Of a DNA stretch of 64,000 nt, positions 36,284-44,537 are shown piece after piece (within the stretch, counting starts at the first letter, position 1; each line of letters begins with the position of its first letter). The notes beneath the pieces are model-generated. The model searched no databases, had not been told where the DNA came from, and saw nothing but the letters and a program-made list of their open reading frames with translations. This DNA is from Leisingera sp. ANG1 (GTDB lineage: Bacteria; Pseudomonadota; Alphaproteobacteria; Rhodobacterales; Rhodobacteraceae). Where the stretch lies: NCBI RefSeq assembly GCF_000203975.2, contig NZ_AFCF02000001.1, forward strand, positions 875,783-939,782, given 5' to 3'. The translations under genes and the position numbers were made by a program.

Positions 36284-36589
36284 ATGTCGACCACCGCAAA
36301 ATCCCTGGCCGTTGCCAGCGCCGTTGCCGCCGCTCTGACCGCAGCTTCGACCATCCCCGCTGCTGCTGCCACCAAGGAAAAATGCTACGGCGTTTCGCTG
36401 GCAGGCCAGAACGACTGCGCCGCCGGCCCCGGCACCACCTGCGCCGGCACCTCGACCACCGACTACCAGGGCAATGCCTGGACTCTGGTGGACGCAGGCA
36501 CCTGCGAGGGCATGGAACTGCCCGCGATGGCAGACGGCACTGAGCGCAAGGGCTCGCTGGAGCCGCTGGAGCGCGACCTGCCGGCATAA
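36284..36589 (+). CDS. bufA1: Bufferin-type RiPP metallophore precursor (DUF2282)
   Basis: 101 aa DUF2282 protein, now described as the precursor of bufferins: ribosomal, post-translationally modified copper-binding peptides exported to the periplasm. An N-terminal signal peptide runs to about residue 29 ([18 protein letters not shown]). Four cysteines, C34, C45, C53 and C74, are the expected sites of modification by the MNIO enzyme. It is 69 bp upstream of that enzyme, separated by a hairpin, which suggests more precursor than enzyme is made. AAGGA lies 9-10 bp before the ATG. Confidence 0.9.
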
Positions 36590-36605
36590 GACCGGCTTGA
36601 ATTCA

Positions 36606-36635
36606 GGGGCGGGAGTGTCAATTCCCGCCCCTTTT
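36606..36635 (+). terminator. Attenuator between the bufferin precursor and its modifying enzyme
   Basis: GGGGCGGGA / TCCCGCCCC (36606-36614, 36623-36631), 8-base loop, followed by TTTT. As a partial terminator it would give an excess of precursor transcript over the downstream genes. Confidence 0.8.
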
Positions 36636-36658
36636 GCACCCGGACCACAGGACCCGCC

Positions 36659-37513
36659 ATGCTTGACACTGCTGCACATGACAGGCTGCCCGCCGCCCCC
36701 GGCGTTGGCTACAAGCCGCAGCATTTCGCCCAGATCACCGCCGAACCGGGCAGCGTCAAATGGCTGGAAATACACGCCGAGAACTACATGGGCGACGGCG
36801 GACGTCCAATTGCGCAGCTGCGCCACCTGTCCGAACGCTTTGCTATGTCAGTTCACGGCGTCGGCCTGTCGATCGGCGGCGAGGGCGCCCTGGATGCGGA
36901 CCACCTCGCCCGGCTCAAGCATCTGGTTGGCTGGCTGAACCCTGCCAGCTTCTCCGAGCATCTGGCCTGGTCCACCCACGACAGTCATTTCTACAACGAC
37001 CTGCTGCCGCTGCCCTACACGGACACCAGCCTGCAGCGGATTTGTGATCATATCGACGAACTGCAGGACACCATTGGCCGCAGGATGCTGCTGGAAAACC
37101 CTTCCAGCTACCTCGCCTTTGCCGAGAGCACCTGGTCCGAGCCTGAATTCCTGGCCGAAATCTCCCGCCGCACCGGCTGCGGGCTGCTTCTGGACGTGAA
37201 CAACGTCTTTGTGTCCGCCACCAACCTCGATTTCTCGCCCCAGGGCTACATCGACGCCTTCCCGCTGGACAAGGTCGGCGAGATCCACCTTGGCGGCCAC
37301 GACGAGGATGAGGACGACCACGGCCGCCCGCTGCTGATCGACAGCCACGGGCGCGAAGTGGTGGATCCGGTCTGGGCGCTCTTGGATTACACGCTGGCAA
37401 AATCCGGCCCCAAGCCGGTGCTGATCGAATGGGACAACGACGTACCGGACTGGCCCGTGCTGGAAGCCGAGGCCGCCCGCGCCGCAACCGCGTTGGAGCG
37501 CGTTCCGGCATGA
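36659..37513 (+). CDS. bufB: MNIO/DUF692 family bufferin-modifying enzyme
   Basis: 284 aa TIM-barrel-like protein of the multinuclear non-heme iron dependent oxidative enzyme family. Metal-ligand candidates are H66 (SVHGVG), E146/N147 (LLENPS), D179/N181 (LLLDVNN), H210 and H214 (EIHLGGHDE), D228/H230 (IDSHG) and E257 (IEWDND). Related enzymes modify cysteine residues of bufferin precursors. The stop overlaps the next start by 4 bp (ATGA). Confidence 0.9.
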   Translation: MLDTAAHDRLPAAPGVGYKPQHFAQITAEPGSVKWLEIHAENYMGDGGRPIAQLRHLSERFAMSVHGVGLSIGGEGALDADHLARLKHLVGWLNPASFSEHLAWSTHDSHFYNDLLPLPYTDTSLQRICDHIDELQDTIGRRMLLENPSSYLAFAESTWSEPEFLAEISRRTGCGLLLDVNNVFVSATNLDFSPQGYIDAFPLDKVGEIHLGGHDEDEDDHGRPLLIDSHGREVVDPVWALLDYTLAKSGPKPVLIEWDNDVPDWPVLEAEAARAATALERVPA

Positions 37514-38265
37514 GTGTGACCCAGACAGAATTCACCCGCGCCATGATGGATGCGGGCCAGCCGGTGCCGGACGGTCTGATCGACCATCAGGCCCAGCCCG
37601 CCGGGCGCCGCTTCAGCGTGTACCGCAACAATGTGGCCGTCTCCCTGACCGATGCCATGCACAGCGCCTTTCCGGTGATTGCCAAGCTTCTGGGAAAGCA
37701 GAACATGGACGGGCTGGCAGGCATCTACCTGCGCCAGCATCCCCCTTCCTCACCGCTAATGATGTTCTACGGCGAACATTTCCCTGCCTTCCTCGAAGGC
37801 ATGCAGCAGCTCAAGCACCTCGGCTACCTTGGCGATGTCGCCCGGCTGGAATTGGCCCTGCGCCGCGCCTACCATGCTGCCGATGCCGCGCCCATTACCC
37901 CTGACGCGCTTGGAGCCCTTCCGCCAGACCAGCTGATGAACACTTGGCTGACGCTTGCGCCCGCAGTGCAGGTCATCTGTTCGCCTTGGCCCGTCCACGC
38001 CATCTGGCGCTTCAACACCGAGGACGGCGCGCCCAAGCCTGAACCGCAGGCCCAGGATGTGCTGGTCACCCGTCCTGAATTCGACCCCATTCCCCAGGCT
38101 CTGCCCCTCGGCGGGGCCCTCTGGATCCGCGCCCTGATGAAGGGCGCCACCATCGGCGAAGCGCTGGAACAGGCCGCCGCCGCAGACGAAACCTTCGACC
38201 TGGGTGCCACGCTGGCCCTGCTGTTGCAGGGCCACGCGATCACCGGATTGGACAGCAAAGGGTAA
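37510..38265 (+). CDS. bufC: DUF2063 protein, probable substrate-recognition partner of the MNIO enzyme
   Basis: 251 aa. The N-terminal DUF2063 domain (QTEFTRAMMDAGQPVPDGLI, RFSVYRNNVAVSLTDAMHSAFPVIAKLLG) is the usual partner of DUF692 enzymes and is thought to deliver the precursor. It is translationally coupled to the enzyme (ATGA overlap), so the two probably form a complex. Database names as a DNA-binding domain are misleading for this family. Confidence 0.88.
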   Translation: MSVTQTEFTRAMMDAGQPVPDGLIDHQAQPAGRRFSVYRNNVAVSLTDAMHSAFPVIAKLLGKQNMDGLAGIYLRQHPPSSPLMMFYGEHFPAFLEGMQQLKHLGYLGDVARLELALRRAYHAADAAPITPDALGALPPDQLMNTWLTLAPAVQVICSPWPVHAIWRFNTEDGAPKPEPQAQDVLVTRPEFDPIPQALPLGGALWIRALMKGATIGEALEQAAAADETFDLGATLALLLQGHAITGLDSKG

Positions 38266-38269
38266 ATCC

Positions 38270-38833
38270 ATGCACGCACTTGTCTCCATTCACGACGCCG
38301 TCTTCCGCCAGGTGGAAAGGGGCGGCAACTGGCTGCTGCCGCTGGCAGCGCGCTTTGTTTTCGCCTCCACCCTGCTGCTCTACTTCTGGAACTCCGGCCT
38401 GACCAAGCTGGGCGACGGCATCCTCGGCCTGTTCAGCCCTTCGATCGGCGCCTACAGCCAAATCTTCCCGAAACAGCTGGAGGCGGTCGGCTATGACGTC
38501 TCCCAGTTCGGGCTATTCCAGAAACTGGTTGTGCTGGCCGGCACCTACGCCGAGTTCATCTTGCCGCTGCTGATCGTGATCGGCCTTCTGACCCGCCTCG
38601 CTTCGCTTGGCATGATCGGCTTTGTCATCGTGCAATCGCTGACCGACATCTACGGCCACGGTGCAACCGACGACAAAACCCTTGGCGCGCTGTTCGACCG
38701 CTTCCCTGACGCGGTGATCCTGGACCAGCGGCTGTTCTGGGTCTTCTTGCTGGCGGTCCTGGTGGTCAAAGGCGCCGGAGCGCTCTCTGTGGACGCCCTG
38801 CTACGCAACCGGATGGAACCGGCCATCGCCTGA
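38270..38833 (+). CDS. DoxX family membrane protein of the bufferin operon
   Basis: 187 aa with four hydrophobic segments (LPLAARFVFASTLLLYFWNSG, LVVLAGTYAEFILPLLIVIGLLTR, LASLGMIGFVIVQSL, LFWVFLLAVLVVKGAGALS). DoxX-type proteins often close bufferin operons, perhaps maintaining redox balance or membrane delivery. It starts 4 bp after the bufC stop. A strong bidirectional terminator follows. Confidence 0.87.
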   Translation: MHALVSIHDAVFRQVERGGNWLLPLAARFVFASTLLLYFWNSGLTKLGDGILGLFSPSIGAYSQIFPKQLEAVGYDVSQFGLFQKLVVLAGTYAEFILPLLIVIGLLTRLASLGMIGFVIVQSLTDIYGHGATDDKTLGALFDRFPDAVILDQRLFWVFLLAVLVVKGAGALSVDALLRNRMEPAIA

Positions 38834-40090: not shown

Positions 40091-40570
40091 TCAGGACCGC
40101 CGCAGGTATTCCACCATCACACAGGCCGGATCGCTGTCGCGAAGCACTGTTTCTCCGGCCTTGAACCACTTGTCTGCCTGAAACTCCGGGAAATAGGCAT
40201 CTGCATCCTCGATGGTCAGATCCACCTCGGTGACCAGCAGCCGGTCCGCCATATCCAGCATCCCACGATAGATCCCCTCACCGCCAATGCCATAGACGCG
40301 CCGGTAGCCTTGCGCATAGGCTGCTTCCACCGCCGCCTCGATCGACGGAAGCACAATCTCCGCTGCCTGCGGGTTGGAGGACACCACCAGATTGAGCCGG
40401 TTCTTCAACGGCTTCACCGGCAGGCTGTCCCAGGTGTTGCGGCCCATGATGATGGCGCCGCCCAGGGTCTCACGCTGGAACGCCTTCAAATCCTCCGGCG
40501 CAAACCAGGGGATATCATTGTCCTTGCCGATGGCACCGTTGCGCGCCCGCGCAGCGATCAGGGTAATCAT
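40091..40570 (-). CDS. folA: Dihydrofolate reductase
   Basis: 159 aa. MITLIAARARNGAIGKDNDIPWFAPEDLKAFQRET, then IIMGRNTWDSL and IGGEGIYRGMLDMADRLLVTEVD, give the active-site and NADPH-binding motifs of DHFR. It regenerates tetrahydrofolate consumed by thymidylate synthase, encoded just upstream and probably co-transcribed (31-bp gap). Confidence 0.96.
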   Translation of the reverse strand: MITLIAARARNGAIGKDNDIPWFAPEDLKAFQRETLGGAIIMGRNTWDSLPVKPLKNRLNLVVSSNPQAAEIVLPSIEAAVEAAYAQGYRRVYGIGGEGIYRGMLDMADRLLVTEVDLTIEDADAYFPEFQADKWFKAGETVLRDSDPACVMVEYLRRS

Positions 40571-40601
40571 GCCTGTTGTCCTTGCCCGTGTTACTTGCCT
40601 G

Positions 40602-41435
40602 TCAGACCGCCACCGGCGCCTTGATCACTGGGTCGGGGTCATAGTTCAGGATTTCAAAGTCATCAAAGGTGAAATCGAAAATCGAATTCACCTGCCGCTT
40701 GATCTGCAGCTGCGGCAGCGGCTTGGGACTGCGCGAGAGCTGCAGCTGCACCTGCTCCACATGGTTCGAATAGATATGCGCGTCGCCCATCGTGTGCACG
40801 AAATCCCCAGCCTCGTAACCGGTCACATGCGCCAGCATGGCCAGAAGCAGAGAATAAGACGCGATGTTGAACGGCACCCCCAGGAACATGTCGGCGGAGC
40901 GCTGATAGAGCTGCATGTGCATCTTGCCGCCTGCAACCCGCACCTGCCACAGCGTATGGCAAGGCGGCAGCGCCATGTCCGGCACATCCGCAGGGTTCCA
41001 GGCTGAGACGATCAGGCGGCGGCTGTCCGGGCTTTTGCGGATCATCTCCACCAGATCCGAAATCTGGTCGACACTGCCCGCACGGTACAGCGGCTCATCC
41101 CCTAGGGTCCCTTCAGCCAGTTCCAGCTTGGGAAAGCGGCGCCACTGGTGGCCGTAAACCGGTCCCAAGTCGCCGTTCTCATCCGCCCACTCGTCCCAGA
41201 TCGACACCCCGTTTTCCTTCAAGTAGCGGATGTTGGTGTCGCCGGACAGGAACCACAGCAGCTCATGAATGATGGAGCGCAGATGCAGCTTCTTGGTGGT
41301 CACCAGCGGAAAGCCTTCCGCCAGGGAATAGCGCGCCTGCATCCCGAAACAGGACAGCGTTCCGGTGCCGGTCCGGTCATCCGACGGCACCCCGTGATCC
41401 AGAATGAATTGTAGCTGATCGTGATACTGCTGCAT
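40602..41435 (-). CDS. thyA: Thymidylate synthase
   Basis: 277 aa, methylates dUMP with methylene-THF. The active-site cysteine is C159 in ALPPCH. DRTGTGT (20-26), [10 protein letters not shown] (59-68), [21 protein letters not shown] and HIYSNHVEQ are conserved. Slightly longer than E. coli ThyA (264 aa) because of a short insertion near residues 102-122. It precedes folA on the same strand, the common thyA-folA pairing. Confidence 0.97.
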
Positions 41436-41683: not shown

Positions 41684-42601
41684 ATGAGGCGCTTTTGGCT
41701 AGGGCTCGCGGCAGCGTCCGTGGTGTCCGCATGCGGCGGGGGGAATCCCTTCACCACAACGACTGATGACGATACGGACACCGGCACGGATACCGAGTCG
41801 GCGATCCCAGATGCTTTGGCAAACGATCTTGAAAGCGTTAGCTATGACCCGTCCAATCAAACGCTGACCGTGTCAGGCGTGAGTTTGGATGAAACACCGT
41901 TCTCCGCCTCCTACGTTCGCAAGACCGCCCTAGACCGGGACGGTTACGAAGCCTACACGGTTCAAGACTCGTCCCTTGACCGCCATTCCACCGCCTATGT
42001 CCGCCAGATCGAGGGCGGATACGCCGTTGTTGTCGCAACAGGCGGGCAGTTCAACTACTACTTCGCCGGTACAAACTATGGCCGCACCGGCAGCTATTCT
42101 GCGCCAGACACGGATCAGCCTTCTGGCGGTCTCGTCAGTTATGCAGGGTCGTATGTAGGCCTCTTGAACACTGCTGGAAGCGGAGAAGACCTTCTTCCTG
42201 TTGCCGCCGGTACGCCATCGGAGCTTCAGCCCGACCAAGCCGCGGAAATAACGGGAGATGTGTTTATTAACGCTGATTTCGCCGATAACACTGTAAACGG
42301 CCTGATCTACAATCGTGCCGTTACGGACAACGGGTCAGCGTCTCCAGCCAATTTGGAGCTGGCACCGACGTCCATTACCGAGGACGGAACGTTCACTGGT
42401 GATGTTTCGATCGACAAAACCAATTTCGGCGAGTACGGTGGGATATTCTCCGGCACTGATGCAGCAGCCGTAGCTGGGAGCGTTCACGCTACAGGTCATA
42501 TCGACGGGTATTCTTCAGACATTGAGGAATACGGCGTGTTTGTTCTCGGGCAATGCGGGGGCGACAACAGCGACCCGGTCTGCGATCAGCCAACCCCGTA
42601 A
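41684..42601 (+). CDS. Slam-dependent-type surface lipoprotein candidate
   Basis: 305 aa. The lipobox is SVVSAC, with C17 as the lipidation site, followed by an acidic low-complexity linker (TTTTDDDTDTGTDTESA). The soluble part ends with EYGGIFSGTDAAAVAGSVHATG, like the beta-barrel lobe of TbpB/hemophilin-like proteins handled by Slam translocons. It is immediately upstream of a Slam-like barrel gene (2-bp gap), strong context for an exported surface lipoprotein. The GC content looks lower than its neighbours by eye. The ligand is unknown; metal or haem binding is only a possibility. Confidence 0.8.
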   Translation: MRRFWLGLAAASVVSACGGGNPFTTTTDDDTDTGTDTESAIPDALANDLESVSYDPSNQTLTVSGVSLDETPFSASYVRKTALDRDGYEAYTVQDSSLDRHSTAYVRQIEGGYAVVVATGGQFNYYFAGTNYGRTGSYSAPDTDQPSGGLVSYAGSYVGLLNTAGSGEDLLPVAAGTPSELQPDQAAEITGDVFINADFADNTVNGLIYNRAVTDNGSASPANLELAPTSITEDGTFTGDVSIDKTNFGEYGGIFSGTDAAAVAGSVHATGHIDGYSSDIEEYGVFVLGQCGGDNSDPVCDQPTP

Positions 42602-42603
42602 AC

Positions 42604-44037
42604 ATGCACAGGTTTGTGGCAGCATTTGTTGGGCTGGCCGTTTCCATCGGCCAGCCACAGGCACAGGAGTCCCCGAAGACTCAGGCCCATCTGACATTGG
42701 AGCAAGGTCAGATTCTGGCTGCGCACGCTCTCGACAACGGCAATCCGCAGCTGGCCTTGCGGGTGTCTGACGCGCTGCTGCAAGCCAATCGCAAGAACCA
42801 CATAGCCTGGCAGCTGCAAGCGGTGGCCTATGCCCAAGCCGGTCAGCACGCCAAAGGCCGCAAGGCCGCCGCCCGTGCTTTTCGCTTTGCTCCCGACAGT
42901 GCCGCCAAGTTCCAGATGGGCCAGCTGGCCTCGCGCCTGGCGTTCCAGGGCGGCAGCCCGGCCTTGTCTCAATACTGGCTGCGCCGGACGGCAGTTCATT
43001 CCCCGGACAGCAAATCCGACGCGCTGATTGCCAAGGATTACCAGGCCCTGCGCCGGATCAGCCCCTGGTCCTTCCGCCTCAGCGGCGGGGTGAAACCGTC
43101 GAACAACGTGAACAACGGCTCTGACGCGGCGACTCAGGAAATCGACGGGCTCAGCTCTCACCAGAACAGATTCGGCCCGCGCGCCATTGCCCTTTCCGGT
43201 CTTATCGGAACCCTGGACAGCAGCCTCGGCCGCCGCCTGCGGCAAAGCGAAACCAGCCTGACGTCTCTCAGCGGGCGCCTCTACGTCCAGCGCGTCGCCC
43301 TGTCTTCCAGCGCCAAGGAAGAAGCCGCCGCACTGGCTGCGCAGACCGGCACCAGCGTGCCCCGCAATTCCGAATTCGGCTCCACCTACGGCGAAATCAC
43401 TCTGAGTCACGCCTTTGCCGCAGGCCCCAAGGAAAGCGCCGGCAGTGCCCGTGTCGCCCTGACCGGTGCAACCTCCTGGTATGGCGGCAGGCGCAACTAC
43501 AATCTGGTAAAGCTGTCAGGCGCCCGCAGCTGGGCCCTCTCCAGCCAGAACCGGCTCACCATCAACGGCAGCGCCGAACACCGGATTGATCCGCGCCTGA
43601 GCTTGCTGAGGGCCGACGTGTTCGGCCTCGGCGCCTCGCTGTCGCGAAAGCTGGAAAACGGCAACAGCCTCAGCTTCTCCCTTGGATTGCGCGACACCCA
43701 CACCAGCAATGTCAACTCCGCAGGAACTACGGCAACCCTGCGCATCGGCTACGCTATTGCAGAGGCCATCGGCCCGGCCAAAGTCAGCACAGGACTGATT
43801 TTGGGAGCCGCCGACTATCCCGATCACATTTTCCACAACGGTTTTGGCTGGCAAACCATACCCGGCGGCCGCCAGGATCAGTCGCTTTATGCGGATTTGA
43901 ACGTATTCTTTGAAGATTATGATTACGCAGGGTTTGCCCCCATGCTGCGGGTCCGCGCGGGCAAGCGCAGTTCCAATCACAGCCGCTTTGACAGTTCGGA
44001 ATTTTCCGTTTCTCTGGGCATTGAATCAAAGTTCTGA
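42604..44037 (+). CDS. Surface lipoprotein assembly modifier (Slam)-type outer membrane protein
   Basis: 477 aa. A signal peptide runs to about residue 21 (QPQAQ). An N-terminal periplasmic TPR region follows (LALRVSDALLQANRKNHIAWQLQAVAYAQAGQHAKGRKAA). From about residue 155 the sequence alternates hydrophobic and polar residues as transmembrane beta strands (FRLSGGVKPSNNVNN, LSFSLGLRDTHTSN) and ends SVSLGIESKF with a C-terminal Phe. TPR plus barrel matches Slam (DUF560), which moves lipoproteins to the cell surface. It follows the lipoprotein gene, the usual arrangement. Confidence 0.82.
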   Translation: MHRFVAAFVGLAVSIGQPQAQESPKTQAHLTLEQGQILAAHALDNGNPQLALRVSDALLQANRKNHIAWQLQAVAYAQAGQHAKGRKAAARAFRFAPDSAAKFQMGQLASRLAFQGGSPALSQYWLRRTAVHSPDSKSDALIAKDYQALRRISPWSFRLSGGVKPSNNVNNGSDAATQEIDGLSSHQNRFGPRAIALSGLIGTLDSSLGRRLRQSETSLTSLSGRLYVQRVALSSSAKEEAAALAAQTGTSVPRNSEFGSTYGEITLSHAFAAGPKESAGSARVALTGATSWYGGRRNYNLVKLSGARSWALSSQNRLTINGSAEHRIDPRLSLLRADVFGLGASLSRKLENGNSLSFSLGLRDTHTSNVNSAGTTATLRIGYAIAEAIGPAKVSTGLILGAADYPDHIFHNGFGWQTIPGGRQDQSLYADLNVFFEDYDYAGFAPMLRVRAGKRSSNHSRFDSSEFSVSLGIESKF

Positions 44038-44108: not shown

Positions 44109-44537
44109 ATGCCCCTCACCTATCTGCACACCATGGTCCGGGTGAAAGACCTGGAGAAATCCATGGCCTTCTTTGCGCTGCTGGGCCTCAAGGAGACCCG
44201 CCGCTGGGACAACGAGCAGGGCCGGTTCACCCTGGTGTTCATGGCGCCCCCGGGTCAGGAGGACGCCCCGGTCGAGCTCACTTGGAACTGGGACGGGGAC
44301 GACGCGCTGCCCAGCGACAGCCGCCATTTCGGCCACCTTGCCTATGGGGTGGACGACATTTATGCCGTTTGTCAGCACCTGATGGACAACGGCGTCACCA
44401 TCAACCGTCCGCCGCGCGACGGGCACATGGCTTTTGTGCGCTCGCCCGACAATATTTCCATCGAACTGCTGCAAAATGGCGGGTCCCTGCCCCCGGCAGA
44501 GCCTTGGGCCAGCATGGAAAATACCGGCCACTGGTAA
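44109..44537 (+). CDS. gloA: Lactoylglutathione lyase (glyoxalase I)
   Basis: 142 aa. Metal-ligand positions correspond to H7, E56, H76 and E119 of the GloA pattern. HTMVRVKDLEKSMAFFALLGLKETRRWDNEQGRFTLVFMA, then VELTWNWD and HFGHLAYGVDD, closely follow E. coli GloA. It isomerises the hemithioacetal of methylglyoxal and glutathione. ACAGGAGACCGCC precedes the ATG. Confidence 0.93.
   Translation: MPLTYLHTMVRVKDLEKSMAFFALLGLKETRRWDNEQGRFTLVFMAPPGQEDAPVELTWNWDGDDALPSDSRHFGHLAYGVDDIYAVCQHLMDNGVTINRPPRDGHMAFVRSPDNISIELLQNGGSLPPAEPWASMENTGHW

Follow-up and report, generated by a model that had tools for sequence, protein, structure and literature searches.

Two adjacent genes in a 64,000-nucleotide stretch of the Leisingera sp. 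ANG1 genome (contig NZ_AFCF02000001.1, positions 875,783 to 939,782; hereafter the window) very probably encode a dedicated cargo-translocon pair of the Slam, or type XI secretion system (T11SS), kind, from the branch called marine cluster 3. The upstream gene specifies a lipoprotein of 305 amino acids, the candidate cargo (positions 41684..42601 of the window, + strand; ATG at 41684, stop TAA at 42599-42601). The downstream gene specifies a T11SS/Slam-type outer-membrane protein (OMP) of 477 amino acids (42604..44037, + strand; ATG at 42604, stop at 44035-44037), and only 2 bp separate the first stop from the second start. Gene linkage, homology, fold predictions and phyletic co-occurrence form the basis of this assignment; taken alone, the two window proteins are suggestive of a Slam-type pair and not proof of one. 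An earlier note on this DNA had described the two reading frames, their coordinates and spacing, a lipobox at Cys17 and an acidic linker, all of which are confirmed. The Slam/DUF560-type pair that it proposed is likewise supported, by relatives of the OMP that match SlipAM, by a TPR plus 14-strand model, by the cargo-like barrel of the lipoprotein and by linkage. We infer that the OMP exports the lipoprotein to the cell surface.

Linkage of the two genes across the family

Both genes are present in one copy in their own genome. In a family sample of 295 genomes, about one per genus, homologues of the OMP were found in 141. The comparison covered 125 loci, namely 120 stretches (7.9-13.5 kb) from 117 of the 141 genomes, four further relatives (L001-L004) and the window itself. 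Among the four, L002 comes from Leisingera aquaemixtae CECT 8399 and has both genes of the pair. The loci were drawn from the OMP matches listed for the 141 genomes; 23 genomes, many with partial or weak matches, were left out (G019, G028, G032, G060, G061, G067, G079, G087, G095, G114, G126, G133, G139, G155, G156, G159, G160, G180, G212, G214, G216, G233 and G245). An automatic search found a lipobox-bearing open reading frame (ORF) upstream of the OMP in 111 of the 125 loci, at a median gap of 4 bp, with 100 lying within 50 bp and 37 touching or overlapping the OMP gene. Reading the remaining upstream ORFs and the profile matches brought the count to 117, the additions being L060, L109, L139, L142, L149 and L098 (L060 and L098 are cut by a contig end). 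In two of the automatic 111, L094 and L150, the OMP frame is interrupted and the gap measures 377 and 464 bp, respectively. Such an interruption by a stop was seen in L094, L149 and L150 (genomes G269, G038 and G184), where the cargo gene is still present or partial; individual genomes may be losing the system.

The linkage exceeds what chance would give. Of 122 loci, 109 have a lipobox ORF no more than 120 bp upstream of the OMP; for eight control genes taken from the same stretches with the same filter, the figure is 12 of 496 cases (three of the 125 loci were dropped by conditions of the script). Over the wider interval of -200 to 900 bp, the figures are 110 of 122 and 22 of 496. Across the 295 genomes, a cargo profile (A1) and the OMP matches occurred together in 132; the OMP occurred alone in 9, the cargo alone in 5 and neither in 149. 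Profile A1 was built partly from genomes that were then searched, so that the 132 are not independent for those genomes and the informative part is that genomes lacking the OMP mostly lack the cargo as well. Three genomes with cargo-profile matches and no window-type OMP (G115, G198 and G287) each have another SlipAM match, and in the remaining two cargo-only genomes (G167 and G227) the cargo matches are weak and partial. Outside the family, a sample of 240 genomes drawn from the whole class yielded no full-length cargo of this kind. The profile matched four genomes besides the window's own, all weakly, over positions 156-299 (G335), 138-279 (G368), 62-279 (G459) and 9-143 (G350) of its 318; those of G335 and G459 are less than 2 kb from an OMP-profile match.

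Loci of this kind have been described before. PMC12282271 (2025) presents a marine cluster 3 T11SS syntenic locus in Rhodobacteraceae/Roseobacteraceae on the basis of 11 genomes, 10 of which have a cargo lipoprotein of 282-375 amino acids. "Undescribed", the word chosen in the earlier note, is thus too strong, since the same kind of locus and cargo is already on record there. Among the papers listed by a search that did not extend to most subscription journals or to any bioRxiv preprint, we found no other on the cargo-OMP pair in Rhodobacteraceae. The window pair matches marine cluster 3 in its gene neighbourhood, which is the basis of the assignment. Over 145 cluster 3 loci, the same source counts a glyoxalase in 89, DUF1194 in 102 and the TbpB barrel domain in 8, with 0.21 cargo per OMP, and it leaves three options for these OMPs: a distant cargo, a cargo below detection, or none. 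Our comparison of the family points to the second of these, with the cargo adjacent to the OMP. That account calls cargo rare in the cluster 3 branch. In the loci covered here almost every OMP has one, and this near-universal adjacent cargo, lying below Pfam detection, is what the present analysis adds.

The scarcity reported for cluster 3 most likely marks a limit of detection: Pfam TbpB_B_D adjoins the OMP in 9 of the 141 genomes (6 over the cut-off, among the matches listed, with coordinates compared by eye), which is near the published 8 of 145, while direct inspection gives 117 of 125. Among 109 cargo proteins, Pfam at E<=0.01 detects TbpB_B_D in 20 and FHBP_C in 18, and the NCBIfam family "Slam-dependent surface lipoprotein" is found in 25 at E<=1e-3 (best 3.5e-9) when its 80-bit cut-off is not applied, the window protein not being among them. 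Profiles made from 19 cargo of the window's own clade reach much further. At E<=1e-3 and 0.05, the profile of the C-terminal barrel recovers 69 and 77 of the 90 other cargo, and that of the N-terminal domain 61 and 78. Among 4209 ORFs, a set that includes the cargo ORFs themselves, each profile has four other matches at 1e-3, every one a cargo missed by the lipobox filter or the list. These counts suggest that nearly every OMP of the marine branch keeps a lipoprotein partner.

We think it likely that the marine cluster 3 T11SS, far from being cargo-poor or repurposed, belongs to the core surface equipment of the Rhodobacteraceae and has been inherited vertically. Most of its OMPs would each be closely linked to one dedicated lipoprotein, whose N-terminal domain is conserved and whose divergence hides it from Pfam, and the function of the system would be independent of DUF1194 and distinct from host-specific ligand piracy. 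All seven verified T11SS systems fall in cluster 1, according to PMC12282271; for marine cluster 3, in which no substrate has been verified, the adjacent lipoprotein is a candidate that can be tested directly.

Predicted architecture of the two proteins

The lipoprotein begins with a signal peptide and the lipobox VSAC (41684..41734, + strand), in which Cys17 is preceded by an uncharged hydrophobic stretch and followed by Gly at +2; both the lipobox and the Sec signal are read from the sequence. Cys17 is invariant in 109 aligned cargo, a set that was itself selected by lipobox and that omits L124, whose C-terminus is unlike that of its relatives, and L150, which is cut short. Next comes an acidic, Thr-rich linker (residues 18-45; 41735..41818, + strand; pLDDT below 50), which varies more among 107 relatives than any other region except the C-terminal tail. 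It leads into an N-terminal beta domain in the handle, or effector, position (residues 46-149; 41819..42130, + strand), modelled at low confidence with strands between residues 52 and 128 and block-mean pLDDT values of 50-65. The C-terminal part (residues 150-290; 42131..42553, + strand) is predicted as an eight-stranded barrel, with block-mean pLDDT values of 70-90 except at residues 161-190 (40-55). The 50 PDB matches listed by Foldseek for this model are to fHbp (best 4ayd, E 2.1e-8), TbpB (3hol, 2.3e-6) and HphA (8glo, 8.2e-6), which bears out the likeness to TbpB and hemophilin relatives expected in the earlier note. The motif GGIFSGTDAAAVAGSV singled out there is present and sits inside the barrel, some 40 residues short of the chain end; the actual C-terminus is EEYGVFVLGQCGGDNSDPVCDQPTP. 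Two cysteines that follow the barrel, Cys291 and Cys300 (42554-42583), are present in 46-47% of aligned cargo and perhaps form a C-terminal disulfide clasp.

The N-terminal domain and the barrel are equally conserved: over the 107 relatives, identity to the window protein is 34% for the former and 33% for the latter. Conservation of this order would argue for one old function and against a fast-diversifying host ligand, and it makes the N-terminal domain the key part to solve. Capture of haem through a conserved histidine was considered and rejected: the mature window lipoprotein has three His, and none is well conserved, since among 108 aligned cargo they are retained in 29%, 11% and 19%. Haem might still be bound through other residues.

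The OMP has an apparent signal sequence at its start. In the model (mean pLDDT 78), a periplasmic TPR domain of seven helices (residues 32-152; 42697..43059, + strand; TPR_14 at 20.1 bits, E 9e-4, under the cut-off) precedes an outer-membrane barrel of 14 long strands ending in a terminal Phe (residues 155-477; 43066..44034, + strand), with two extra three-residue strands in a loop. An N-terminal TPR region plus a 14-stranded barrel is the layout of Slam/DUF560 T11SS OMPs (PF04575). The membership proposed in the earlier note holds at the level of the family, as SlipAM/DUF560 matches 81 of 122 OMP homologues at E<=0.01 (best E 4e-11; this set, A2, omits three OMPs of no more than 400 amino acids, from L094, L149 and L150). 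It does not carry over to the window protein by itself, which reaches 15.5 bits against a Pfam cut-off of 22. SlipAM and TbpB_B_D searches of the window's own genome gave no match at E<=0.001. Other Foldseek matches of the OMP model include OmpG, CymA, further porins and autotransporter barrels. Searched against PDB sequences, the window OMP gave two weak, irrelevant phmmer matches, and the 60 listed of 134 matches to the OMP profile are essentially TPR proteins or designs.

One can envision the following route by analogy with studied systems. The Sec pathway would export the lipoprotein, Cys17 would receive the lipid, and the unfolded chain would be delivered to the outer membrane, held by a periplasmic chaperone; Skp has this role in a reconstituted Slam system (PMC9090332). 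There the TPR/14-strand OMP would recognize the C-terminal eight-stranded barrel domain and pass the chain through its own barrel. The lipoprotein would then fold outside, tethered by its lipid and exposed on the surface, where the conserved N-terminal beta domain may bind a putative target.

The lipoprotein gene is less G+C-rich than the window, as the earlier note had remarked (57.1% versus 62.7%), and its G+C content at third codon positions (GC3) is 61%, compared with 74-85% for ten of eleven other window genes measured. The suggestion that it was possibly acquired fares less well. Cargo genes lie below their OMP genes in G+C in 95% of 111 pairs, by 3.8 points on average and 5.1 in the window. 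The GC3 difference is -12.5 points in the window and -10.9 in L001, against a mean of -3.5 (standard deviation 4.5), with the cargo gene lower in 77% of pairs; the window gene stands at the low end of the family range. Since low G+C is usual for cargo genes and the family has kept the order of the genes, there is no sign of acquisition, and horizontal transfer of the lipoprotein gene was rejected.

Weighing of the pair against other readings

Several observations weigh against a Slam-type pair. Besides the sub-threshold SlipAM score of the window OMP, 8 of the 125 loci have no lipoprotein (L064, L081, L103, L110, L113, L114, L115 and L154). The lipoprotein model, built on an alignment of five sequences (the window and L001-L004), has a mean pLDDT of 59.8 with a poorly modelled N-terminal domain, and it superposes only loosely over the whole chain (TM-scores of about 0.35-0.45 when scaled to the query length, root-mean-square deviation mostly 8-12). 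The window lipoprotein scores 20.2 bits with TbpB_B_D (E 9e-4) and 18.1 bits with FHBP_C, both under the Pfam cut-offs, and 18.1 bits with the NCBIfam model slam_lipo, whose cut-off is 80. A phmmer search of PDB sequences with this protein returned zero matches; a profile of the 109 cargo reaches fHbp only at E 0.05, and neither search gave a sequence match to a TbpB in the PDB. The clade-specific barrel profile misses 13 of the 90 other cargo at E 0.05. The top Foldseek matches of the OMP model are polysaccharide channels, PelBC (9h80, E 7e-9) and BcsC (9b8a, 3e-8), with no Slam structure among the 50 listed; nor was any solved Slam structure matched by sequence. The cargo and OMP distance matrices correlate (Mantel r 0.66, with 0 of 999 permutations as high), which fits co-inheritance, but shared vertical descent by itself would produce the same result.

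Three other explanations were weighed, and the probability that we give to each is not exclusive of the Slam-type pair. The channel matches would fit an OMP that exports exopolysaccharide in the manner of PelB, BcsC and PgaA, with the lipoprotein as an accessory in the periplasm, and PgaA-like proteins were once placed in PF04575 (PMC8406197). The shared TPR-plus-barrel layout would explain the PelB and BcsC matches, however, and the OMP has 14 long strands, as Slam does, and not the 16 stated for the PgaA-like cluster in that source. No polysaccharide synthase or other recognizable polysaccharide synthesis gene occurs among the 16 flanking proteins scanned (34.1-50.7 kb of the window; three of the 16 have no Pfam match). 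The match of 81 of the 122 homologues to SlipAM and the resemblance of the linked partner's barrel to known T11SS cargo count against such a channel as well. It was rejected, and we hold it to be highly improbable. A second possibility is that the true cargo are DUF1194/vWA-like proteins, raised as possible cargo in PMC12282271, the upstream lipoprotein being a relic or an accessory. A DUF1194 gene is found downstream in 79 of the 125 loci, near the published 102 of 145, by a profile built from 18 of the loci on which it was then run. Yet the lipoprotein is kept in 40 of the 46 loci in which no DUF1194 gene was found, the window included (L003 ends 183 bp past the OMP and is uninformative), and in 76 of the 79 with one (77 counting L098, at a contig edge). 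DUF1194 is thus unnecessary for keeping the pair. Its distribution does not fit either, with DUF1194 in 234 of the 295 genomes and the OMP in 141. We rejected DUF1194 as the only cargo, and give the relic account very little credence; DUF1194 proteins may nevertheless act as a second cargo. The 64-kb window has no DUF1194 match, and its genome has one elsewhere.

The lipoprotein could also stay in the periplasm as a plug of the barrel or an assembly factor, which would suit the single copy of each gene in the genome and an N-terminal domain conserved as much as the barrel. This we regard as very unlikely. The barrel fold matches that of surface-exposed lipoproteins, and no T11SS partner is known to act in this way, which we count against the idea. 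The Slam-type pair, with the adjacent lipoprotein as dedicated cargo, accordingly keeps our preference over DUF1194 as sole cargo and over the other two accounts.

Neighbouring genes and comparison with known systems

Pfam identifies around the pair a threonyl-tRNA synthetase, a cold-shock protein, a dihydrofolate reductase (DHFR), a thymidylate synthase, a glyoxalase, MarR- and helix-turn-helix (HTH)-type regulators and a class I/II aminotransferase. The GloA-like glyoxalase gene (44109..44537, + strand; Pfam Glyoxalase) is a conserved downstream neighbour of the OMP, present on the same strand in 112 of the 125 loci at a median distance of 68 bp. The thyA gene (40602..41435, - strand; Pfam Thymidylat_synt) also holds a conserved position, at which most relatives have a ThyX motif; the motif used for scoring is the one we take to be characteristic of ThyX. 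One or the other is found in 114 of the 125 loci (ThyA in 23, the ThyX motif in 91, both in 0), as if the type of thymidylate synthase near the cargo-OMP pair had been swapped in place (window 40091-41435, L001-L004, L035-L154). Further upstream, at 36284-38833, genes for a DUF2282 peptide (36284-36589), an MbnB/TglH/ChrH-family enzyme (36659-37513), a DUF2063 protein (37429-38265) and a DoxX protein (38204-38833) stand in a row. This resembles what we take to be a copper-related operon for a ribosomally synthesized and post-translationally modified peptide, presumably of the bufferin type.

Elsewhere in the family, four of the genomes with cargo-less loci (G140, G217, G229 and G294) hold TbpB_B_D matches away from the locus. 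Five genomes (G294, G001, G146, G014 and G217) have 5-12 such matches each (12 in G294, 8 in G001), away from any window-type OMP. G001 has no OMP of the window type and two SlipAM matches; on contig C12, one of these follows a TbpB_B_D match at a distance of about 0.6 kb. These genomes possibly carry multi-cargo T11SS of another branch.

Compared with known systems, the window OMP shares with the PelB and BcsC channels the order of TPR helices and outer-membrane barrel, but it differs in having no recognized polysaccharide synthesis genes in the flanks scanned (to 50.7 kb) and a cargo-like lipoprotein as partner. PMC12282271 names TbpB, fHbp and HphA-type hemophilins among the known cargo of T11SS. 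The predicted fold of the C-terminal barrel is that of fHbp and HphA; the window lipoprotein differs from them in its poorly modelled N-terminal domain and in its few mature-part histidines. Slam proteins have a TPR plus 14-strand barrel layout, and cargo and Slam genes are linked in many species (PMC5449769). The Neisseria Slam1/TbpB and Slam2/HpuA systems resemble the window pair in this layout, in a lipoprotein with an eight-stranded barrel and in gene linkage. Unlike them, the window pair has no TonB-receptor family or other receptor family recognized among the 16 flanking proteins scanned, has one barrel lobe and not two, and has no TbpB sequence match in the PDB. The closest counterpart is the marine cluster 3 locus of PMC12282271. 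The window departs from the 11-genome description in having thyA and DHFR in place of the flavin-dependent thymidylate synthase gene thyX, and no DUF1194 beside the pair. The two agree in a cargo with a C-terminal eight-stranded barrel, a T11SS OMP, a glyoxalase, a thymidylate synthase and related bacterial hosts, and also in the aminotransferase, cold-shock protein, DHFR, threonyl-tRNA synthetase and HTH regulator that surround the pair.

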